Assembly (NCBI RefSeq): GCF_001908105.1
Contig: NZ_MKGQ01000038.1
Span: forward strand, 1-24,858
Direction: 5' to 3'
DNA: 24,858 nt
Source of the DNA: Xenorhabdus eapokensis
GTDB lineage: Bacteria; Pseudomonadota; Gammaproteobacteria; Enterobacterales; Enterobacteriaceae
The translations under genes and the position numbers were made by a program. The notes below the pieces were generated by a model, which was not told the origin of the DNA, made no database searches, and was given only the letters and a program-made list of their open reading frames with translations. Numbering within the stretch: the stretch's first letter is position 1; each line of letters opens with the position of its first letter. Positions 1,621 to 24,407 of the stretch are shown in pieces.

Positions 1621-1775
1621 GCGTAAAAAAGTGTGGGGTATGGATTTGGTGAGAATTGGATAAAATAGTTTAACAACTCAGGTTACAGGGAATTGTGGGT
1701 TCTCACCGCTATCTGATAAGCACGCTTAATTGCTTAATTATAGTGAGTTAAAAAAGTACCCTACCTTTTTTACGC
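1621..1775. repeat. Inverted-repeat pair bounding ~155 bp (MITE-like)
   Basis: GCGTAAAAAAG followed by TGTGGGGTA (1621-1640) is matched in inverse orientation at 1757-1775, whose complement reads GCGTAAAAAAG then GTAGGGTA. About 16 of 19-20 positions agree. The enclosed DNA has no gene. I do not see a clear target duplication outside the repeats. It could be a small non-autonomous transposon remnant or a large RNA stem. It lies just upstream of the peptide operon. Confidence 0.4.
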
Positions 1776-1839
1776 CCCATAAAGTAACATTAATTTAACC
1801 TTTATTTAATCTTTGTTTAACAAAAAACAAACAAAAGGG

Positions 1840-1868
1840 TTGAAATGATAATCTTCGCTTAGTATGTT
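1840..1868 (+). promoter_or_regulatory. Sigma-70-like promoter of the peptide operon, with Fur-like half-box
   Basis: TTGAAA (1840-1845) and TATGTT (1863-1868) are separated by exactly 17 bases, giving 5/6 and 4/6 matches to the sigma-70 boxes. The spacer contains ATGATAATC (1845-1853), identical to nine consecutive bases of the Fur consensus, although the other half is not conserved. Transcription would begin near 1875. Iron control is speculation from one half-site. Confidence 0.45.
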
Positions 1869-1874
1869 CTCTTA

Positions 1875-1890
1875 GTCGCAAAAAAGCGAC
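1875..1890 (+). promoter_or_regulatory. Hairpin at the predicted 5' end of the operon mRNA
   Basis: GTCGC (1875-1879) and GCGAC (1886-1890) form a five-pair stem around a six-A loop, starting almost exactly where transcription from the predicted promoter would begin. A 5'-terminal stem commonly protects a short mRNA from decay. It lies about 30 bases upstream of the peptide start and does not cover the ribosome binding site. Confidence 0.4.
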
Positions 1891-1921
1891 CACAAAACAA
1901 CATTAACATAAGGATATTATC

Positions 1922-2008
1922 ATGCTAAAAAAATTCGATACTCAAAAAATTATTGGTCTGAAAAATCAATCTACTTGCTTCACCGTTATGACCATTGGTA
2001 CTAAATAG
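1922..2008 (+). CDS. Candidate RiPP precursor peptide (28 residues)
   Basis: The ATG is preceded by AAGGA with seven bases between. The peptide begins MLKKFDTQKI, with a charged first half, and ends STCFTVMTIGTK, rich in Thr and beta-branched residues with a single cysteine (Cys19). A basic/polar N-terminal part followed by a Ser/Thr/Cys-rich C-terminal part is the usual leader-core layout of RiPP precursors. Immediately downstream lie an HExxH peptide-hydroxylase-like enzyme, a CMD-like protein and an exporter, all on the same strand. I do not recognise a named precursor family. An alternative is a short leader peptide controlling the following hairpin by attenuation, but no run of one regulatory amino acid is obvious. 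The gene falls below usual ORF length cut-offs. Confidence 0.65.
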   Translation: MLKKFDTQKIIGLKNQSTCFTVMTIGTK

Positions 2009-2017
2009 TAACTTTAT

Positions 2018-2052
2018 AAGTAGATAAGTAGCGTTAAGCTGCTTATCTACTT
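2018..2052 (+). promoter_or_regulatory. Strong hairpin between peptide gene and modification genes
   Basis: Fifteen bases at 2018-2032 pair with 2038-2052 around the five-base loop GTTAA, with one G-T wobble as the only imperfection. The stem starts nine bases after the peptide stop and ends directly before AAAGGA, the ribosome binding site of the enzyme gene. No T tract follows, so it is not a complete terminator. The likely role is partial attenuation or a 3' stabiliser that gives much more peptide than enzyme, as in many RiPP operons. Confidence 0.65.
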
Positions 2053-2067
2053 AAAGGAACATTCATT

Positions 2068-3051
2068 ATGAATTTCACTCATCATCCAAGTTACAATCAA
2101 TCTGAATACCTAAAAAACTCCACACAAGAAAAACTACTCTCATCATTAGAGTATGTATTATACGTTTGCGATGATGTTTTAGATAAAAATATCATCTCAG
2201 AAGTTGTTGATTTCGTTTCCAACGCTAAAAAAAAGCGCTATTCAAGTGGATTCTTATTTTACATAATCAAAGAAATCGGCAAGGCAATCGAAAATCAATC
2301 CGTACATCGTATTCACCAATGCTTCAATCTAATTCCATTACTAAACATAACACCGGCAACTAAAGTTATAGTTGGGAACAAAGAAAACCTGCCAACAGGC
2401 ATGTTCGATTTCTACTCAAAAATTAATGATGATGTTTACGATTTTGAGTATGTAGATATAGAGATTGAAAATGAACGTCTTATCCAAGACAGCCTAAACG
2501 AAGCCTTCAAAATAATATTTGATATTGACTCAGAGCTATATCGAGAAATAATTAAAATAGTTGATGAGTTTTTCATATTCAGAACTCATAAAAGAGATAG
2601 CAACATCGTTTATTCAGGCAGTGATTTCAACAAACTTGGAACTGTATTTATCAATGAAGAAATATGTAACGGCGACAACATATACTTTTTAGTTGACAAA
2701 ATAATACATGAGTCTGCTCATCAAGTTCTACTGTCTATAATGACTCTTGATGAAATAGTATTGAATGATGATAGAGAAAGGTATCCATCACCTCTCAGAA
2801 CTGGTTTGAGAACAATGAATGGAATTTATCATGCTGCTTTTGTTTTATATAGAATATCTTGTTTCTTTAACAAGTTGGTAAAATCCGACCCTAGCGACAC
2901 CAAAGCAATCATTAATTTAGAACAAAATGTTCGACAATTCAAAGATTGCTATGGTGTTATAAGCAACAAAGGAGTACTTACCAACGCTGGAAAAAATATA
3001 ATTGATGCTTGCAATTCAGAAATAGAGGCAATATTGGATGGGATTTATTGA
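2068..3051 (+). CDS. Stand-alone HExxH-type peptide beta-hydroxylase-like enzyme
   Basis: This 327-residue protein carries HESAH at residues 214-218 in DKIIHESAHQVLL. The segment SPLRTGLRTMNGIYHAAFV follows, with His255 as a candidate third metal ligand and Arg244/Arg248 as candidate 2-oxoglutarate contacts. This spacing fits the HExxH domain (TIGR04267-type) linked to RiPP clusters. Fused radical-SAM members of that family are reported to be iron/2-oxoglutarate beta-hydroxylases rather than proteases. Here the domain stands alone with no radical SAM partner. About 200 mostly helical N-terminal residues may bind the peptide leader. AAAGGA lies about nine bases before the ATG, and the 3' end overlaps the next gene by 14 bases. 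The gene is clearly richer in A/T than the phage genes. Family assignment is by eye; a metallopeptidase is the main alternative. Confidence 0.7.
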   Translation: MNFTHHPSYNQSEYLKNSTQEKLLSSLEYVLYVCDDVLDKNIISEVVDFVSNAKKKRYSSGFLFYIIKEIGKAIENQSVHRIHQCFNLIPLLNITPATKVIVGNKENLPTGMFDFYSKINDDVYDFEYVDIEIENERLIQDSLNEAFKIIFDIDSELYREIIKIVDEFFIFRTHKRDSNIVYSGSDFNKLGTVFINEEICNGDNIYFLVDKIIHESAHQVLLSIMTLDEIVLNDDRERYPSPLRTGLRTMNGIYHAAFVLYRISCFFNKLVKSDPSDTKAIINLEQNVRQFKDCYGVISNKGVLTNAGKNIIDACNSEIEAILDGIY

Positions 3052-3439
3052 TTCTCTTGACCAAAAAACCATTGATTTGATAAGTAAATTTAATGGTGAT
3101 TCCCTAAGAAGGCTAAGGGAAGATTTGTATCCAATCGCTCCAGCTCTTGTGGAGCGGCTGATCAAAAGCATCTACCAAGATGCTTATCAAAGAGGTGTGC
3201 TGACCACAAGAGAACGGCACATTGCCACTATATCCGCCTTGATTGCTATTGGTGGAGCTGAGCGGCAGCTATCTTTCCAGAGTTACGCCGCGTATAGGCT
3301 TGGGTTTACGAGAGAGGATATGGAAGAAATTTTGATACAAAACTCGATTTTTTCTGGTTTTACTAGGGCTATGAACGCAGCTGTAATTTTTGATGATACT
3401 TGGAAAAAATTTCAACGTGGAAACGATAATGAAGCATAA
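3038..3439 (+). CDS. Cysteine-free carboxymuconolactone-decarboxylase (CMD)-fold protein
   Basis: This 133-residue, all-helical protein matches the CMD/AhpD fold. The pattern TTRERHIATISALIAIGG (about residues 56-73) is the typical second-helix signature, followed by QLSFQSYAAYRLGFTREDM and an EEIL helix. The AhpD CxxC pair is absent and the protein has no cysteine at all, so it is not an alkylhydroperoxidase-type reductase. It is closer to the decarboxylase or cofactor-free branch. The usual histidine after the CxxC position appears as Ser/Gln (residues 79-81), so catalysis is uncertain. The start overlaps the hydroxylase gene by 14 bases, giving translational coupling. Its role in peptide maturation is unknown: decarboxylation, isomerisation or a binding partner are all possible. 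Confidence 0.65.
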   Translation: MGFIDSLDQKTIDLISKFNGDSLRRLREDLYPIAPALVERLIKSIYQDAYQRGVLTTRERHIATISALIAIGGAERQLSFQSYAAYRLGFTREDMEEILIQNSIFSGFTRAMNAAVIFDDTWKKFQRGNDNEA

Positions 3440-4658
3440 GAATTTTTATTTATATCAATCGGCTGACATTATCTTCACATCATCTTGTCGTGCCATAGGC
3501 ATGTTACTTGCTTGGGTTATGATACAACACTACCAATTAAAGATTGAACTCGGTTGGTTCATATCCATATCTTGGCTACTGCAAGTTTTAACTCTTATTT
3601 TCATGGGGTTGTTTTCTAACCGATTCAGAAAAAAAACAGTCCCCGTTTTTTGTTCAGCTGCAAGTTTTTTATGCCTCATAACCCTTGAATTTGGTGGTAG
3701 CGTCGAGCCATTGCAGCTAGGTCTTATTTATATAGCGACATCTCTATTTAGCATAGCAATTCAACCTATAGGCTCTAGCATTATCCCAAACTTATATACT
3801 GGAAAGGATATTGAAAGGGCTTTTAGAATTAGAGGCTTTGTAAATTCAATCAACACTATCTTGGGTGCAGCCATATCAGGGTTTGTTATTAGCGCATTTT
3901 CAGCCGAACAAACAATTAGAATATTAATCGTATCTATCGGCGTTTCATGTTTAGCATTTATAATAGTTAAGACAAATGAGCTTTCTTTTAAAAACCCCAA
4001 TCACAAAAGTTTGTCAGCTATTAAAGCATTAGCAATAAATAATGTTGAAAGAGTTATGGTTACGGTTTCAGCCATGTCAAACTTCATTCTCACGCCAACA
4101 TTGATGTATATTACCCCGATATTAATCATAGATAGATATGGTTATACCGCGTTAGAAATCGGTCTATCTGAGGCAATGTTTGGCATAGGTATGTTTTTAG
4201 GTAGTGCTCTTTTTTGTAAAAAATTAAATAATGTATTTGGTGTTAGAATTACAACTGTTTTCAGTATAGCTACTGTCGGTGCCAGCTTGCTACTAATACT
4301 GATTGCTGACAATATCTACTCTTTGTTCCTAGGGTTGTTATTTGCTGGCGCAGGGGTGGTTATTTATAACATAAACACAACAAAAATCCGCTGTTCAGCA
4401 ACTCCAGCTGACTTAAGAAGCTCCTTTGAATCCATTTTTCTAGCCGTTTGTATTCTTCCAATTCCAGCAGGTGTAGCCATATCTACATTAATGGTTGATT
4501 CTGGTAAATTAGAACTCTCACTAACATTATTCTCTATGTTAATTTTCGCGTCGGCTCTGGCGGTTTGGCTATCTAAAGATTTTAGATTAATAGCTCAATT
4601 GGATAATGACGATTTGGATAGTCACTACATTAAGTTATATCCTAAAGCCTACTTGTAA
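3429..4658 (+). CDS. MFS transporter, probable peptide exporter
   Basis: This 409-residue protein has about twelve hydrophobic segments and, between segments 2 and 3, GLFSNRFRKKT (residues 60-70). That is the MFS motif A, with Asn for the usual Asp. The chosen start, MKHKNFYLYQ, overlaps the end of the CMD gene by 11 bases. An in-frame ATG at 3390 would add 13 residues that look like read-through of the CMD gene and is less likely. As last gene of the four-gene operon it probably exports the mature peptide or gives self-protection; export by an MFS protein rather than a peptidase-containing ABC transporter suggests a small product. Substrate cannot be read from sequence. High A/T content matches the other cargo genes. 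Confidence 0.8.
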   Translation: MKHKNFYLYQSADIIFTSSCRAIGMLLAWVMIQHYQLKIELGWFISISWLLQVLTLIFMGLFSNRFRKKTVPVFCSAASFLCLITLEFGGSVEPLQLGLIYIATSLFSIAIQPIGSSIIPNLYTGKDIERAFRIRGFVNSINTILGAAISGFVISAFSAEQTIRILIVSIGVSCLAFIIVKTNELSFKNPNHKSLSAIKALAINNVERVMVTVSAMSNFILTPTLMYITPILIIDRYGYTALEIGLSEAMFGIGMFLGSALFCKKLNNVFGVRITTVFSIATVGASLLLILIADNIYSLFLGLLFAGAGVVIYNINTTKIRCSATPADLRSSFESIFLAVCILPIPAGVAISTLMVDSGKLELSLTLFSMLIFASALAVWLSKDFRLIAQLDNDDLDSHYIKLYPKAYL

Positions 4659-4700
4659 CGATTAGCGTTTAAGGTCGTGTATTCAACGCGTTGATCACCC

Positions 4701-5046
4701 TCAAACATAATATTCACGTTCAATGAAAGTGCCGATGATTTTGTCATGCATTTCAGGTGATTTTGAGTAACCGAGTGTTTTACGGTTCAGTCGCTTAATT
4801 CGGTTACGTAAGGTTAAGTTTTCGCGTTCGATACGTTGAGTAAAATATTTTCCAACCAGATGTTTGGCTGAAGGTAGTAAATTATAGGCTCGGTAATTAT
4901 CAGTACACCAAAAGGCTACCTTGCATTTAGACAGTTTTTTCAATAACTTTTTCAGTGTTTTCTTGTTTCGTCTACCAAAAGCATGCGCAATGATACGTTT
5001 TAGACGAGGCTCCCAAGCATACCATAACCAACGTTGGCACTTTTTA
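4701..5046 (-). pseudogene. insB: IS1-family InsB transposase, C-terminal remnant
   Basis: The frame reads KKCQRWLWYAWEPRL near 5046, then AFGRRNKKTLKKL, FWCTDNYRAY, FTQRIERENLTLRNRIKRL and ends HDKIIGTFIEREYYV. This is the catalytic C-terminal half of IS1 InsB, and the WCTDNYRAY segment corresponds to the IS1 WMTDGWPLY catalytic-core segment. The N-terminal half and start are deleted, and the frame is fused out of phase to the insA remnant. Non-functional. Confidence 0.8.
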
Positions 5047-5200
5047 TTCCGGCTTGACAGGCTCGATAAGAGTAATCGAGCTGGAAAGTACGGTTACAGC
5101 ATAAGCAACGATAACGTTGGTGACCACCTTTACCGATACCATGTTTTTTAACATACTTCGTTTGGTGACAAAACCGACACTTTACTTCCACTGTGGCCAT
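5000..5200 (-). pseudogene. insA: IS1-family InsA, N-terminal remnant
   Basis: Starting at the ATG at 5198-5200, the product begins MATVEVKCRFC and shows the IS1 InsA zinc-finger pattern CRFCHQ...HQRYRCLCC, then TFQLDYSYRACQAG. Homology stops near 5046. The last 15 or so codons are insB DNA read out of frame and end at a stop at 5000. The InsA helix-turn-helix is missing. Confidence 0.75.
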
Positions 5201-5299
5201 GTATGTTATCTCGCAAAAATAAGCATTATAGACGAAGAACAACGCCTTGAATCATGGCCCAGTTGTTTCTGATATTCAATGGCCTGAGCATCCCTAATA

Positions 5300-5371: not shown

Positions 5372-7480
5372 TTATAAATCCATAATATAAAACTCTAAAT
5401 TATGTGCGCCAAGTGAATTAAGATTTGACTCATGGAATATTTTTAGTGTTTTTCCATCAGGCATTATTTTAAAAATAATAGCAGCAACCATATCATTTTC
5501 ATATCCAAGACTTACTGCTTCTTGATACGCTTGCAACACAATTTCTGGAACAGGAGGAATAAAAAGCCCCACACCAAAAGATATACGCTCACGCTGACGA
5601 TACCTGGAAAATCCTTTAATAAATAAATGTTTACCTAGGCAATTTTCACTGAAAGTGAGACTCATATAATTTCTTTCCCCGCGTAGGTTTTGCTTATGTT
5701 CTCCAAACTCTCCAATTTTTCGCCATCCCTTCGCCCTATCCCGTGCCACGTCATTAACACGGGCATCGACCTCACCGCGACTGTAGGTTTCGCCTTTGCT
5801 GTACGCGCCGACATCGGCAGAGTTCAGCGCAATATCGCCTGACAGGGGTTTACCGTTGACGGTACGACCGGAGGGTACACGGCCATTGGCGTTATTATTA
5901 GCGTTGTTGGCGGTAGCTTGTGCTGCATTGGCAACGTTCCTGACATCCGTTACACGACTATCGATTTCGCCACGGCTGTACGTTTCCCCCTTGCTGTAAG
6001 CCCCGACATCGGCGGCATTTAATGCAATATCTCCTGCCAACGGTTTACCGTTGACGGTACGACCGGAGGGTACGCGGCCATTGGCGTTATTATTGGCATT
6101 ATTAGCGGCAGTCTGCGCCGCATTTGCCAGTGCCTTAGCATCATTGACATGCTTGTCTGTCTCACCCTTGCTGTAAGCCCCAACATCGGCAGCGCTTAAT
6201 GCGATATCGCTCGACAACGGTTTGCCATTCACTTTACGACCAGCCGGAACACGGCCGTTGGCATTATTATTAGCGTTGTTAGCGGCGGTTTGTGCGGTGT
6301 TGGCGACGTTTCGGATATCATTTACACGACTATCGACTTCGCCTCTGCTGTATGTCTCACCCTTGCTGTAAGCCCCGACATCGGCTGAATTTAATGCAAT
6401 ATCGCCTGACAGCGCTTTACCGTTGACGGTGCGGCCAGACGGTACACGGCCATTGGCGTTATTATTGGCATTGTTGGCGGCCGTCTGCGCTGCATTTGCC
6501 AATGCCTTGGCATCATTGACATGCTTGTCTGTCTCGCCCTTGCTGTAGGCCCCGACATCGGCAGAATTTAATGCAATATCGCCTGACAGCGGTTTACCGT
6601 TCACGGTACGACCGGAGGGCACACGGCCATTGGCGTTATTATTGGCGTTGTTGGCGGCAGTCTGGGCCGCATTTGCCAGTGCCTTGGCATCATTGACATG
6701 TTTGTCTGTCTCGCCCTTGCTGTAAGCCCCGACATCGGCAAAGTTTAAGACGATATCGCCTGCCAGCGGTTTACCGTTCACGGTGCGGCCAGAGGGAACG
6801 CGGCCGTTGGCATTGGTGTTGGCGTTGTTGGCGGCAGTCAGTGCGGCATTTGCCCGTGCATTGGTGTTGTCGAGTAGCGTTTTCCTGAGCGTATTGACTG
6901 CCTTGGGACTCGCGGCAATGCTTTCTTCGTCACTATCTATCTTTTCGCTTAACGTGATCCCCACGGTTTGAACGACGCGATGGGAAGTGTCAATCATGGC
7001 TTCTGTCACGGCCTTGGCGTCCATCGGCACGTTAACGCGACATAATTCTAACTGATTGCCGGATATTCCCTGAGAAACGTCTATAACGACGATATGCGCC
7101 GCTTTAATCGTGGAGGATGAATCTACCTGATTGGTGACTTTGCCAAATTCAAAATTCGCTTCAAGGGCAACGATGCTGGTTTTGCTGGCCGGAACCGGAA
7201 CAGTAATATCTTTCACCTGTTGAATGGAAATCTGACTTTTCCTGACGTTGATGGACGCGGCGCCCTGTCCGTCCTGCTCTGAGGATGAGGTAATCACTAC
7301 GGACAGGCCGGAGCCTGCTTTAGGCTGAAAACCGGTATAAATACCCGCTCGTAAGATCCCCTTAAATTTCCGGTTTAAGGCACTTGAAGTGTAGGGTTCC
7401 AAGTATTGAATATCGGCTAACAGGGGTAGGGACCCCCTGTCACTGGAAAGGATAACCGCTTCGTTGATCACCTGGGACAT
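5372..7480 (-). CDS. Tail fibre, repeat-rich, host-recognition protein
   Basis: This 702-residue protein is the last gene of the virion operon. Residues ~1-200 are a baseplate-attachment region beginning MSQVINEAVILSSDRG. Residues ~205-575 are six repeats combining an Ala/Asn-rich helical part (ANNANNNAN) with GRVPSGRTVNGKPL and ADVGAYSKGET. The last ~115 residues, from KGWRKIGEFGEH to LEFYIMDL, are unique and are the probable receptor-binding tip. VNGKPL...ADVGAY repeats are widespread in trimeric fibres of enterobacterial contractile phages. The start overlaps the previous stop (TAATG), with GAAGG upstream. No tail-fibre-assembly (tfa) gene follows, which is unusual; the terminator, IS remnant and cargo operon occupy that place. 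Host range should be set by the C-terminal tip. Confidence 0.85.
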   Translation of the reverse strand: MSQVINEAVILSSDRGSLPLLADIQYLEPYTSSALNRKFKGILRAGIYTGFQPKAGSGLSVVITSSSEQDGQGAASINVRKSQISIQQVKDITVPVPASKTSIVALEANFEFGKVTNQVDSSSTIKAAHIVVIDVSQGISGNQLELCRVNVPMDAKAVTEAMIDTSHRVVQTVGITLSEKIDSDEESIAASPKAVNTLRKTLLDNTNARANAALTAANNANTNANGRVPSGRTVNGKPLAGDIVLNFADVGAYSKGETDKHVNDAKALANAAQTAANNANNNANGRVPSGRTVNGKPLSGDIALNSADVGAYSKGETDKHVNDAKALANAAQTAANNANNNANGRVPSGRTVNGKALSGDIALNSADVGAYSKGETYSRGEVDSRVNDIRNVANTAQTAANNANNNANGRVPAGRKVNGKPLSSDIALSAADVGAYSKGETDKHVNDAKALANAAQTAANNANNNANGRVPSGRTVNGKPLAGDIALNAADVGAYSKGETYSRGEIDSRVTDVRNVANAAQATANNANNNANGRVPSGRTVNGKPLSGDIALNSADVGAYSKGETYSRGEVDARVNDVARDRAKGWRKIGEFGEHKQNLRGERNYMSLTFSENCLGKHLFIKGFSRYRQRERISFGVGLFIPPVPEIVLQAYQEAVSLGYENDMVAAIIFKIMPDGKTLKIFHESNLNSLGAHNLEFYIMDL
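5750..6868 (-). repeat. Six tandem repeats inside the tail-fibre gene (177 and 195 bp)
   Basis: The unit occurs six times in two versions. Type A, 59 codons, has GETDKHVNDAKALAN. Type B, 65 codons, has GETYSRGEVDSRVND. From the N terminus the order is A-A-B-A-B-B. Copies are highly similar at DNA level, with the VNGK region recurring at about 6767, 6590, 6413, 6218, 6040 and 5847. This is a substrate for recombination that would change fibre length. Confidence 0.85.
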
Positions 7481-8001: not shown

Positions 8002-9057
8002 CTATACAAAGACGATCTTTACGATGTCTTTAAAGGCGTGTGAACCGTCATACGGGAGTTGGATTTCTCTTGCACCGGCAGGGAATTCATAACTACCCAT
8101 TTTTCCGTCTGCATAGCTGACCAAACAGCCGCGCTGTCCGGTGGCTTCAAGGATAATTTGACCGGCCTCCTCCCGAAGACGCGGATCTCCCATAAATACG
8201 GGGGGCGCAAGGACGTTAACATCCAGTGCCCACATATCCAGCGGCACTTCATCCATGTTCAAAGGCGTGGTTTTCGTTTTGAATGTGACAGGCGCCATAG
8301 GGGAAGCGAGTTCAGCGCCGACCTGCATTTTTTTAACCCTGTCGCCCTGTTCGGGGAGGGCGCTAATACGTACTTGTTTAGCCGTCTGCTTAAGGTGAGT
8401 CATATCGGGTTTATCATGCAGCTGGGCTATGTTGTAAAACAGACGCGTTTCCGCCCTGTTCAGGTGGGTACGTTCCTTAAAGAGGATATCGGCCAGATGA
8501 GATGAGAGATCGGTATTGAAGCGTATTTTTTCCACCGTATCGTATGGTTCGGGGAGGGCGCTGATACGTATCTTTTCTGTTGTCTGTATCAAGCGAACGA
8601 TATCGTTGTTATCGACCAGCTGAATATGGGGAGAAAGTTCGGTGCTGAACCGTATCTTTTCAACCGTGTTGTGGTGTTCGGGGATGGCGCTGATACTGAC
8701 CTGCTCTGTTGTCCGTTTCAGATGAATGGCGTCGCAGTGCGCTTCTAACGGCACATCATATAGAATAAATTCGGGCATCACACAATACGTGATTTTTTCT
8801 ATTAACGGGATCTGTTCAACCGGAATAGGCAGAAAGGCTTTTTTCGCCCAGGAAGGGAATGAATAATGCTTTATCCCCTTCCCTTTCAGTGACACCCGAC
8901 ACCCGTAATGGCCTTCCGTTGAGATCCAGATTTGATTATTAACGAGATTAAACCGTGTGTCAGTCTGAGTGCCAAAAGGCACCGGAATAATGGGGGGGGG
9001 TATGATGTAAGTCCAGCGCCCATGCATCAAGGGGCATTTCATCAAAACGATAAGCAC
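8002..9057 (-). pseudogene. Downstream, out-of-frame part of the I-like tail gene
   Basis: Frame of up to 351 codons. The first ~22 overlap the I-like gene in another phase and are not meaningful; real coding begins after the G tract at 8992-9000. It then reads IIPVPFGTQ and a domain ending KITYCV, three imperfect repeats around ISALPE...VEKIRF, and a second copy of the domain from MDEVPLDMWALDV to KIVFV. The first domain copy starts in the upstream frame (FDEMPLDAWALDL), so the two frames are one gene. Joined, they give about 609 residues. No start with a ribosome binding site is seen at 9042-9057, so independent translation is unlikely. Expression needs a one-base change, slippage or frameshifting at the tract. 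Confidence 0.7.
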
Positions 9058-11615: not shown

Positions 11616-14600
11616 CTAGTGATCCCTTTCTCTGAGCATTTCAGATAGTGCGTCGCTTGCGGCACCCAGCGGAATATCACTTCTCGGTGCGGGCTGCGCG
11701 GAATGGGTGGTTCTATTGGGATCTGTCCCATTGTTGTTGGCTTCTTTCTGAACGCTGATCAGTTTTTCGATAGACGCCGATATTTTTTGGAGTTGTGTCA
11801 GCATGGCCTTGTCTGCATTACTGGTCGATTTATCGCGTGTGACCGGCGTTTTTACCCCACTGGCCGCTAGATCGGTAACGGTGGGAAGACGGCTTGGCAG
11901 GGTCATACCGACGGGTTGGCGAATGGTGTTGGCAACGATGTTTGCCATGCCGTGTATACCGCTATCTATTTTCTGGGACACAAAGCCAGTGAGTGGGGAC
12001 AGTGCCCTGATCTTATCGTTGTCTAAACCGATGTTGCCTAACATGCCGTCCAGCATTCCGCTGCTGGAAAAACCCTGAGTCATGCTCTTAACGGTATCGG
12101 CCATACTTGGCAAGGCTATCTCAGATACGGTTTGTAAAAAACCGTCAGAAGGCTGTTTTGATGGGGCTTTATTCGCACTCTTTGCCATCGCCACCGGCAT
12201 AATACTGCCTTTATTGCCTACGGGCTTTTTATCCGTCAGGCTTTCAAGCGGAGCACTGGCAGGCAAGGCTTTATTTACATCATTGACAGAAACGATAGGT
12301 ATCGCGTCTTTGTTTATTGGTTCAGCGTGTTTCTCATTATGGCTACTTACGGTATCAATAGGCTCATTTTGGGTTGCATTATGGCTATTTATGGTATCGG
12401 TTGGGTTATTTATGGTGGCATTATTGCCGCTTCCGGTATCAGAACGGTTGATAGCCGATACTGGATTATCTTCTAATTGTGCCAGCGGATCATGGACGCG
12501 ATTTTTGACAAATTTAGCGTTATTCGCTTGGGCGATTTGGTCTACGGGAAACATGGCCGTTCGTAATCCTGCTGGCAGGTTTTCCGCACGCATATTCGTG
12601 GGGAGTGTTAGCCCTGCATCGGGTCTGTTCAAGCGAGTACCGGCCACATTATTGCCTGCGAATACATTGCTGATCTTTTCATCCGCGAGATGACGGATTT
12701 TTTTGATACTGCCCAAAACACCTGTATTTTCATCCTCTGACAGTGGTGTTACCGCAGCCTTGTTTTTTTGGGCTTTCGCCGTGGCACTGACCTGTTCGGG
12801 TGCACTGAATTGATCCGCTGAACTAATGGCTTTCAGCCCTTTTTCCGCCCGAACCTTGTTCACATGCTCCAGTGTTTCTGGGCTAAATTTACCAATCCAT
12901 GAATTGGCTGATTCGTCACGGGTGCCGATGGCATTCTTGATAAATTCGTCAGTAACTTGGGGATTGCCTCCCTCAATGGTTGAAATTGCCCTGATCATCT
13001 TGGTCATGGTTTCAGGGTTTGATAGATCTAATTGCTGGTCAGCGTTAACCCCCAGTGCCTTTGATAAATTAGCGATATATTCTTCGGTGTTGTTTTCGTT
13101 TTTAGGTGCATATTTCGTGATGATTGACTCAACGGTATTGAGCTTTTGATAACCGACGGCTTTTGACGTGCCGTTGGCATAGGACGTAATCTGGTTGGCA
13201 AGTGCTCTCATGCCTTCTTCAGGGGTATCGAACTTCGCAAAGGTTTGCTGTCCTTTGGCGTTAGGATCTTCAAGACGTGCCCCTTTCTGTCCGACATACA
13301 CCAAATTACCGAAATTATTATTGCGGAAGTTACGGTTTTTGGCGTTTTTTCCACCAATGTTAAGGTTGTTACCGAAATGATTCTGCTCCGGTGTCGAAGG
13401 GAAAAATACAGTAGGCACCATCTTACCGTCTTGCCCCATCTCCGCACCCAATGGAAGCATTTGATGTGTTAATTTGTTAACGGCCTGAGTCGTTTTATCT
13501 GTGCCTTCCGTGACAGCCTGAACCAATTCCGCGTTTTCTGAATTATTGTGTTTGTTTCCTTGCTTCGGCTTGTCAGAAGAGAAAAAATTAAGCGCGTCTA
13601 TCACGCTGTCATCAATGGCTTTGCCAAGATTAATGATACCGGTGACGCTATTATCTATTTTTTTGGCTATATCTCCGGTATTAAAGGTCAGTGCATCAGA
13701 CACACTGTCCAACCCCAGCCATTCTGCCCCGTCTGCCAGCAATCCCGCTGAGCCAGATACTAATCCCCCCAGATCTGCGACATTGGCGAGGGCATACTCT
13801 GTTTGCTGGCGAGTAGTGACCTCTTGTCCGTCTTTCAGACCAAATGTCTCGCGCTGGGCATCTGTGTCGGTAAAGCCATCATAAGCATCTAAACCGACGC
13901 CTATCGCCGTCCCAACAAGAGGAACGGCTTTGAGTGCGGTTTTCCCTGCTATTTTGCCCGCTGCTTTTACCGCACTTTTTTCTGTGCCTGTTTTAGCTGC
14001 CTTGGTTGCACTGCTCTCAGTAGCTTTTTTCGCGCCTTTTGTGGCCGCTTTTTGCGTGGCCTGTTCACTGGCTTTTTCTTCAGCACTGTTGAGGATAGCG
14101 TTACCCGCCGTGATAACACCTGCTGAACCGGCAACAACGGCAGTGGCTTTCGCTGCCCCTTTACCGATGTTTTTTAGCCCTTTTTTGTGCTTTTTCTTGG
14201 TCTTTTTGGTTTTCTTTTTATCGTGTCTGCTAACGTCAATATCAATGCCGTTGTCCTCGTCGCCTCTGGCGCTGAATTTGGATACCCGTGATTTGAGTTT
14301 TCCCAGCGCCAGTGCAGAGAGGATCGCCGCCCCCAATTTCCCGCCGATTTTTTTACCAAGGACTTTAACCGCCAGTGCGCTGAAGAGCGCCCCCAGAATA
14401 CCATCTCCCTTCTTTGTTTTATTCTTATCAACAAGATCTTCAAGCAGACTAATGACTTTTTCATCATTGGCTTGGGTTAATTGGGTTTGTTCCTTAATCG
14501 CTTTCGTCTGGTCGTTCTGATTTTGAGTGGCAAAGGATTTAGCGGATTTTGTCTGTTTTTCGCTACCTAATGTCAGGGGCGGCAGTGAAGGACGGATGAT

Positions 14601-23909: not shown

Positions 23910-24407
23910 GTGAAAACAATGAAAGAAGCAACAAAGCAAGCGATGGATTATTTTTTGAGGAGTAAGGTCTACACGGTGGAAAAACTCAAAGCAGATTATA
24001 TGGCCGAACTTGCTGATTACAGCGACGGAATCTGGGAAGCGCCGCAGCGTGCTGCTCGCTTGGGGGCGGCGGTGAAGCGCTACAAAACATCAGAAATGTT
24101 ATGTTTCATTTTCGCAACTGTCACAAATGAATATAAATTCGACCCAGATCTAACCCCACTGACAGTAAAACGTTTATGTAACGCGCTCTTTGGCAGAACG
24201 GGTAGCCAGTGGCTTATTGTTGACGTCTTCGGGGAGAAAGGGCGTCAGCACCGGAGCAAAGACAGCAATCCGGAAAGAATTGAACAAATGGCAGACAGAT
24301 TTCGCACAGCAGCCATACAACACTGGAGCGTTACTCTTGCGGAAATTGAACGGGTAAAACGCGAGTACCAGGCAGAAATAAAGAAAAAACAAAATGCAAA
24401 GGAATAA
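23910..24407 (+). CDS. 165-residue protein on the hicB insertion, unknown function
   Basis: The product begins MKTMKEATKQAMDYFLRS from a GTG at 23910, with AAGGA about nine bases upstream; an ATG at 23919 is the alternative. It contains EKLKADYMAELADYSDGIW, RAARLGAAVKRYKTSEMLCF, the central SQWLIVDVFGEKGRQHR and a long charged C-terminal coil (ERVKREYQAEIKKKQNAKE). It is mostly helical with no signal peptide or membrane segment. I recognise no family. No transposase, helix-turn-helix or nuclease motif is evident. It is the only gene on the insertion and is bracketed by two palindromes sharing the same left arm, which suggests control by a dedicated regulator. Confidence 0.6.
   Translation: MKTMKEATKQAMDYFLRSKVYTVEKLKADYMAELADYSDGIWEAPQRAARLGAAVKRYKTSEMLCFIFATVTNEYKFDPDLTPLTVKRLCNALFGRTGSQWLIVDVFGEKGRQHRSKDSNPERIEQMADRFRTAAIQHWSVTLAEIERVKREYQAEIKKKQNAKE

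Follow-up and report, generated by a model that had tools for sequence, protein, structure and literature searches.

A 24,858-nucleotide stretch of Xenorhabdus eapokensis DNA (contig NZ_MKGQ01000038.1, hereafter the window) carries, at 1766-4672 on the plus strand, a mobile gene cassette that we interpret, with a probability of roughly 0.8, as a minimal pathway for a ribosomally synthesized and post-translationally modified peptide (RiPP). In this pathway a 28-residue precursor would be oxidized in its core by an enzyme with an HExxH motif, a protein related to carboxymuconolactone decarboxylase (CMD) would act second or assist, and a transporter of the major facilitator superfamily (MFS) would export the product. 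The evidence that carries this interpretation is a conserved, translated-looking peptide gene that is tied to HExxH, CMD and MFS genes, the assignment of the three proteins to these families, and the mobility of the cassette.

The peptide gene, which a preliminary description of this DNA had picked out from the letters alone, is an open reading frame (ORF) of 28 codons at 1922-2008 on the plus strand, encoding MLKKFDTQKIIGLKNQSTCFTVMTIGTK. We compared 11 close loci: the window, three loci carrying the same cassette (L001, L002 and L013), and seven close relatives from a pattern-based scan of species genomes, which returned nine HExxH relatives, the other two being distant. These loci span Xenorhabdus, Acinetobacter rudis, Salinivibrio, Vibrio ostreicida, Moraxella catarrhalis, M. 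oculi and Histophilus somni, which we take to represent four bacterial families. A related peptide, roughly MLKKFDxxKIVGLKNxSxCxTIMTIGxK, lies 5' of the HExxH gene in 10 of the 11 (for example MLNKFDINKIVALKNKSKCLTIMTIGNK in A. rudis, MLKKFNTKKMVTLKNNSACLTIMTIGTK in V. ostreicida and MLKQLDLSKVVGLKNQSNCKTIMTIGVKDKK in M. catarrhalis), so that, as the preliminary description had anticipated, a short peptide gene, conserved in its C-terminal half, stands ahead of the HExxH/CMD pair. In an alignment of six of the 10 peptides (A2; L002, L006, L010 and L013 were left out), 14 of 28 positions are invariant. Divergence at silent sites (pS) is 0.60-0.84 versus 0.07-0.32 at amino-acid sites (pN) in 14 of 15 pairs drawn from six loci, the other four peptide-bearing loci standing outside this pairing; the close Moraxella/Histophilus pair gives a pS of 0.18 and a pN of 0.03. 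Since silent sites are far more divergent than amino-acid sites, the frame is unlikely to be a chance ORF, and a short precursor gene under selection at the protein level therefore sits beside a modifying enzyme in 10 of 11 loci, as is characteristic of RiPPs. Frames that begin with ATT or ATA in place of ATG (L006 at 7863, L002 at 10164 and, in a more distant Xenorhabdus locus, L015 at ~1110-1210) lie in loci that are otherwise conserved, and are either dead genes or genes with rare start codons. The peptide gene is absent from the gene tables of both plasmid records, tables that are known to be incomplete. The window peptide has no match in Pfam or NCBIfam, none in phage records, and none in IMG/VR by a degenerate DNA pattern; two related and five distant peptides gave no NCBIfam match above cut-off, the sole match below it being that of the L037 peptide to a radical-SAM RiPP precursor family (17.1 of 50 bits).

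The enzyme encoded at 2068-3051 (plus strand, 327 aa) is of the alpha-ketoglutarate (aKG)-HExxH peptide hydroxylase type, and its placement in a RiPP-linked hydroxylase family rather than among peptidases, proposed in the preliminary description, is upheld by family membership, profile and fold. Its motif is HESAH (residues 214-218), and it scores 66.3 bits against the NCBIfam family TIGR04267 (cut-off 40). A profile of 20 relatives run against the PDB finds ChlH (8s5f) at E 9e-12 and 22nu/22ob at E 0.003. The AlphaFold2 model (pLDDT 88.5) has the fold of the ChlH domain by Foldseek (8s5f, E 6.3e-10, TM 0.66), and 8s5f and 22ob (named SjiH) are the only fold matches below E 0.001. Residues H214, E215, H218, R244, R248 and H255 are invariant in the 20 rows of alignment A1 and identical in the aligned ChlH, the motif thus being followed by downstream arginine and histidine as in ChlH; these residues are presumably the Fe and 2-oxoglutarate ligands. 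Assignment as a zinc metallopeptidase was rejected, there being no Pfam peptidase match and a first peptidase fold at E 0.57 (prob 0.16). The protein has no match in phage records, and the HExxH profile confirmed none in IMG/VR, where 39 stretches matched a word pattern.

The enzyme gene is the first of three overlapping plus-strand genes, an arrangement noted earlier and confirmed here, with an HExxH/CMD overlap of 14 nt and a CMD/MFS overlap of 11 nt. The CMD/PcaC-like protein (3038-3439, plus strand, 133 aa) belongs to the CMD superfamily, with 43.3 bits to PF02627 against a gathering score of 23, and matches the solved relatives 2af7 (E 2e-13) and 4g9q. It lacks cysteine, as do its counterparts in all nine loci compared; Gln81 stands at the position of a His in 2af7, and E59-R60-H61 is invariant in 15 aligned sequences. 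A PcaC enzyme proper was rejected at 38.4 bits to the TIGR02425 equivalog (cut-off 155.7), and the structure model, with a mean pLDDT of 66, was left out of the fold search. The MFS transporter (3429-4658, plus strand, 409 aa; PF07690 at 72.9 bits, cut-off 33.4, with the longer frame 3390-4658 as query) most plausibly starts at ATG 3429, which fits a conserved MKHK and an annotated relative, the listed TTG at 3390 being a mechanical extension. Judged from its sequence, it is a probable exporter or immunity protein. An MFS frame follows the CMD gene in each of the 11 loci (identified by eye in all but the window), at full length in eight, open to the end of the locus in L013, and cut short to 361 codons in L008 and to 113 in L006.

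Between the peptide gene and the enzyme genes lies a hairpin (2017-2053, plus strand; an inverted self-match), whose strength the preliminary description had also remarked: the stretch 3' of the peptide gene has a folding energy of -25.1 kcal/mol (z = -7.5), a stability that none of 200 shuffles reaches. A hairpin occupies the same place in all 10 peptide-bearing loci with differing sequences, and z scores against shuffled sequences, computed for six of these loci, are -7.5, -4.3, -6.6, -5.5, -2.5 and -2.8. A terminator-like U run follows it in Moraxella and Histophilus and not in Xenorhabdus. We infer a possible role in dosage, giving more peptide than enzyme. The promoter-like boxes reported upstream (TTGAAA-17-TATGTT, 1840-1868, plus strand; found by consensus scan, with the same boxes in L001 by eye) do match the consensus at 9 of 12 positions, but such sites are not above chance, with two in 1700-2100 where 1.7 are expected. 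The idea of Fur-like metal regulation from the letters GATAAT in the promoter spacer was dropped because they are not visibly conserved (by eye) upstream of related loci.

The peptide itself may be divided into a candidate leader (residues 1-14, 1922-1963, plus strand, motif FDxxKIIxLK) and a candidate core (residues 15-28, 1964-2005, plus strand). Core residues N15, S17, C19, T21, M23, T24, I25, G26 and K28 are invariant in A2, and Gly26 occurs in all 10 peptides, followed by a variable tail (TK, NK, SK, VKDKK, VKDQDKK or V). The N-terminal half is probably a leader, to judge from its similarity to short peptides encoded before some distant HExxH genes: MKKVESSKLLKIKSPLSGWSFSK in Pantoea (L037), MKKLDSSKLLKIKSAISGWSFSHN in a Pasteurellaceae genome (L039), KIKLDAKKIFSASANRTAPIMDQVN-type peptides in Xenorhabdus (L017-L019), VKLDVSKLYGFN in L040, and MTIDLKKLLVLKVPSSG-type peptides in Amylibacter (L011), with three tandem genes, and Gemmobacter (L012), with one. 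A six-frame search of the loci scanned (703,806 residues) with a strict ten-residue leader pattern gives 17 matches; 16 of these are peptides linked to HExxH genes, three of them being repeat fetches (L022, L023, L026), and one is a stray (L003). A looser pattern is found upstream of the HExxH gene at eight of 19 distant loci (a count omitting L031, where the script found no HExxH frame) versus 154 of 3187 control segments, both patterns having been fixed after examples were seen. Because of this, and because the loci are partly redundant (L017-L019 are near copies, and L033 and L036 resemble one locus), a leader shared with distant peptides is supported, not proven.

The neighbourhoods of these distant loci vary. 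In Xenorhabdus L017-L019 a 36-aa peptide, ending in SANRTAPIMDQVN in two of the three, and the HExxH gene are followed by an FkbM-like methyltransferase and an MFS-like gene, the last two identified by eye. The Rhodobacterales loci (L011 7100-9889 and L012 7351-9877) have three peptides or one, an HExxH gene and, by eye, an AMP-binding adenylation-like gene. The HExxH gene adjoins a YcaO-like gene (by eye) in L042 and L024, with a Nif11-like leader peptide carrying GG (also by eye) in L042; these two represent a different RiPP class.

From the genes we infer the division of the peptide, the site and type of oxidation, the role of the CMD-like protein, export and an antibacterial purpose, as follows. 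Owing to the hairpin, the short message for the peptide would be longer-lived or more abundant than that for the enzyme. Residues 1-14 would bind the HExxH enzyme as leader, with residues 15-28 (NxSxCxT[IV]MTIGxK) as the core, which this enzyme, using Fe(II) and 2-oxoglutarate, would oxidize. One candidate reaction is beta-hydroxylation of N15, T21/T24, I25 or C19; another is alpha-hydroxylation at Gly26, which would remove the variable tail and leave an amide, ...T[IV]MTI-NH2. Cutting at Gly26 fits the presence of this residue in all 10 peptides and the variability of the following tail in sequence and length. In the available portions of the account of PosC and PflC, these enzymes cleave the peptide chain where the residue is small (Ala, and partly Gly for PosC), leaving an amide; its authors infer oxidation at the alpha-carbon, and larger residues are beta-hydroxylated (PMC12636437). 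The CMD-like protein would act on the oxidized peptide or assist the HExxH enzyme, the leader would be cleaved off by one of the cell's general peptidases, and the MFS transporter would export the product and probably protect the producer.

Several observations weigh against this pathway. X. kozodoii (L005) has the HExxH, CMD and MFS genes with no peptide upstream, the HExxH gene there being broken; two of 10 peptide frames begin with ATA (L002) or ATT (L006), the others with ATG; the frame in L010 ends after residue 27; and close HExxH proteins known from the protein search alone (e.g. in Dickeya oryzae and Vibrio alginolyticus) stand outside the peptide count. The strict leader pattern misses two of the 10 close peptides (L006, L008), and 11 of 19 distant HExxH loci have no leader-like peptide within 500 nt upstream, six of these 11 being Vibrionaceae loci, two of which resemble one locus, where another reading frame reaches the HExxH start. 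At the position aligned with H255, 22nu/22ob have Gln. The cassette holds no leader protease, family scans of Pfam and NCBIfam gave no recognition domain, and no precedent was found for PcaC-type CMD chemistry on peptides. Product, mass shift and activity are predictions from the genes alone.

The arrangement could also be read as regulatory, the 28-codon ORF being a leader that, together with the hairpin, attenuates the downstream genes, while the HExxH enzyme has some other substrate. An ORF and hairpin before a transporter gene are a classical attenuation layout, and the U runs after the Moraxella and Histophilus hairpins suit it. We nevertheless regard attenuation as very unlikely: amino acids are conserved across both halves of the peptide despite wide silent-site divergence, the hairpin lies entirely 3' of the peptide stop codon, HExxH genes in other gene neighbourhoods also have similar short ORFs in front of them, in one case as a tandem triplet, and the characterized enzymes of the HExxH family, as far as the available portions of their descriptions go, use peptide substrates. 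Slimmer still is the chance that the HExxH protein acts as a metallopeptidase and trims or breaks down the peptide, with CMD and MFS as a detoxification pair. PflC does hydrolyse a truncated, leader-less substrate, according to the accessible part of its description (PMC12636437); against this, both sequence and fold indicate membership of the aKG-HExxH family, no peptidase-like fold does better than E 0.57 (prob 0.16), and both arginines and the third histidine aligned with ChlH are retained.

A third alternative keeps the RiPP pathway and changes its purpose, the product being a signal, a metal ligand or a peptide-derived cofactor and the MFS protein its exporter. The conserved C19 could bind a metal, and killing is itself an inference, so this deserves real consideration as a minority possibility. 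The patchy spread, mobility and frequent decay of the cassette (HExxH broken in five of 11 loci, CMD open in all) fit a bacteriocin-like trait better, and there are analogies: microcin C has an MFS exporter, and pantocin A, in the portions of its description available, has a precursor of about 30 aa and a resistance transporter.

The cassette is delimited by a blastn block common to L001, L002 and L013. On the IncC plasmid pXT141 of Xenorhabdus sp. TCT-1 (L001) it matches at 97.6%, and on the 252-kb plasmid unnamed1 of Xenorhabdus sp. TH1 (L002) in two pieces at 97.2% and 91.0%, both with a right edge at 4672; in a 4.8-Mb Xenorhabdus contig (L013) it matches at 96.6% up to 4548, inside the MFS gene, where the compared locus ends. 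The left edge is at 1760 in L002 and L013. In L001 the match extends left to 1617 at 87% (blastn) after a 63-nt insertion; this left flank (1617-1764, strand not assigned), with its GAGAGCGTAAAAAAGTGTGGGG stretch, is shared with pXT141 and is not found in L002, L003, L005 or L013. Two identical 184-nt direct repeats bracket the pXT141 cassette (L001 11745-11928 and 15205-15388), each opening with a copy of the GAGAGCGTAAAAAAGTGTGGGG motif. A segment overlapping the left repeat (11850-11999) matches ISKra4-like elements such as ISXne1, and the right repeat continues into a Tn3 transposase DDE domain (PF01526). Copies also occur on two plasmids, one of them of the IncC type, and in genome contigs, which makes the cassette a mobile unit and not phage-specific cargo. 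Identities of the CMD protein also cut across kinship: they are 93% between M. catarrhalis and H. somni, which belong to different orders, and for A. rudis 80% to the window versus 64% to M. catarrhalis, Acinetobacter rudis being a relative of Moraxella; this indicates horizontal transfer. Upstream of the pXT141 cassette (L001 6331-11633) are genes for S-adenosylmethionine decarboxylase, a radical SAM enzyme, an MFS protein and an annotated ornithine decarboxylase, SpeF; together these resemble a further small biosynthetic cluster.

In the 24.9-kb window the carrier is, by its gene content, part of a P1-like element and probably a phage-plasmid. P1-type head, tail and lysis genes are present, namely PmgB-, PmgC- and PmgG-like head genes and genes for sheath, baseplate, fibre, fibre assembly, a LydB-like protein and a holin; we take the names PmgB, PmgC, PmgG, LydA and LydB to belong to phage P1. 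The whole window has no match in phage records by megablast, and its closest plasmid match is the 177-kb Xenorhabdus bovienii CS03 megaplasmid (47% covered at 81%), which makes a phage-plasmid likelier than an ordinary prophage. The earlier label of prophage cargo is too narrow, since this carrier is P1-like with its closest plasmid match on a megaplasmid, and the same cassette lies on two other plasmids and in a chromosome-sized contig. Coordinates and GC content bear out the description of an AT-rich plus-strand block between minus-strand genes: it is flanked by LydB/LydA-like lysis genes (43-644; PF16084 (LydB) at 53 bits, phrog_1898, holin phrog_1527; the LydA assignment is weak, with PF16083 at 20.5 bits below its cut-off of 28.4) and by the tail fibre gene (5372-7480; phrog_23008 and others), and has a GC of 34.5% versus 47.8% for the phage region 5372-21223. 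Between the MFS and fibre genes an IS1-family insertion sequence, on which the preliminary description is silent, adjoins the cassette (4672-~5242, minus strand; PF03400, PF03811), its transposase split over two frames (4701-4943 and 5000-5242, minus strand); NF033558 scores below its cut-off, and plasmid IS1 matches begin near 4671-4674. Elsewhere in the window, the ORF at 8002-9057 (minus strand) has no Pfam match at 0.01 and a marginal PHROG match only, and that at 23910-24407 (plus strand) has neither a Pfam match at 0.01 nor a PHROG match.

HExxH relatives of any degree are uncommon in the genome sets surveyed and mostly of distant types: 7/30 genomes in Xenorhabdus, 6/394 in its order, 4/299 in the Moraxella family, 8/296 in the Vibrio family and 2/140 in the Histophilus family. 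All parts are open, as far as the sequence reaches, in five of the 11 close loci (the window, L001, L004, L007, L013), and the HExxH gene is broken in five (L002, L005, L008, L009, L010), with CMD open throughout. A broken HExxH gene beside an intact CMD gene suits a costly accessory trait with retained self-protection, draft assembly errors also being possible, and CMD and MFS may persist after HExxH is lost. An in-frame fusion joins the latter half of HExxH to CMD in X. kozodoii (L005 8333-9367, P0013). The CMD entry of M. catarrhalis, P0078, represents 951 contigs versus 19-54 for each of the HExxH entries P0019, P0033, P0040 and P0042 (search-limited counts), P0033 being 29 residues shorter than P0019. 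Tentatively, and with more doubt than confidence, one may picture HExxH and CMD as a two-enzyme module for oxidation and rearrangement (or decarboxylation or lyase chemistry) on a C-x-T-I/V-M-T-I-G core, defining a new RiPP class whose antibacterial product would be traded among phage-plasmids, conjugative plasmids and bacteria of human and animal airways, with CMD and/or MFS as orphan immunity where HExxH has decayed.

The cassette seems to represent a family of small natural products not described before, with relatives in Moraxella, Acinetobacter, Vibrio and other bacteria. No publication on this gene set was found in the available portions of the open-licence literature, which leaves subscription journals mostly outside; the preliminary description likewise knew of no pathway with exactly this set. 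No open-licence paper was found that joins carboxymuconolactone decarboxylase with RiPP and precursor peptide. The CMD-like partner is the most novel part and would, to our knowledge, be unprecedented among CMD-family proteins in its link to peptide modification. The study of HExxH hydroxylases gains a very small system in which a single 28-residue substrate, oxygenase, CMD-like partner and exporter make substrate recognition and chemistry directly accessible by co-expression. In Moraxella catarrhalis, Acinetobacter and Vibrio the cassette also constitutes a biosynthetic locus that has apparently not been described and is easy to miss, the 28-codon gene being absent from the gene tables examined; in an insect-killing Xenorhabdus it is a likely natural-product pathway carried by a phage-like element.

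Among known systems, ChlH/ChlB (8s5f), PflC/PosC (PMC12636437), PesO (PMC13060819), BipH (PMC12707348) and BpmH (via PMC12636437) belong, by the available portions of these sources, to the same HExxH domain family, ChlH also sharing the fold and the conserved H/E/H/R/R/H residues. Compared on enzymes and gene content, and not on precursor sequences, the pfl, pes and bip clusters resemble the cassette, as far as those accounts extend, in having a standalone HExxH enzyme clustered with a precursor peptide. The characterized aKG-HExxH enzymes described there are fused to radical SAM or clustered with MNIO and/or radical SAM enzymes, whereas that of the cassette has a CMD-like protein and an MFS transporter as its only companions, and the precursor here has 28 aa where PosA has at least 94 residues. 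The PcaC family shares PF02627, but the cassette protein falls far below the PcaC equivalog cut-off and is linked to a peptide operon. Pantocin A (PaaP-PaaA-PaaB-PaaC; PMC12250964), in the part of its description available, is alike in its four genes, 30-aa precursor, two enzymes and resistance transporter, one of the enzymes being a 2OG-Fe(II) oxygenase that we liken to the cassette HExxH by description only; it differs in its ThiF-like PaaA, lacking here, and in an EamA rather than an MFS transporter. The cassette is accordingly not of the pantocin A type, its three proteins matching the HExxH, CMD and MFS families with no ThiF-like PaaA among them. The nearest arrangements are those of Pantoea agglomerans (L037), Pasteurellaceae (L039) and Xenorhabdus (L015/L016), where, as here, a peptide frame of 23-27 aa and an HExxH gene are followed by a transporter (annotated as MFS in L037, recognized by eye in L039 and L015/L016), with a leader like KKLDSSKLLKIKS in L037 and L039; they differ in having no CMD gene alongside in the stretches examined and cores of the KSPLSGW type, and the L037 HExxH protein is 27% identical over half its length.

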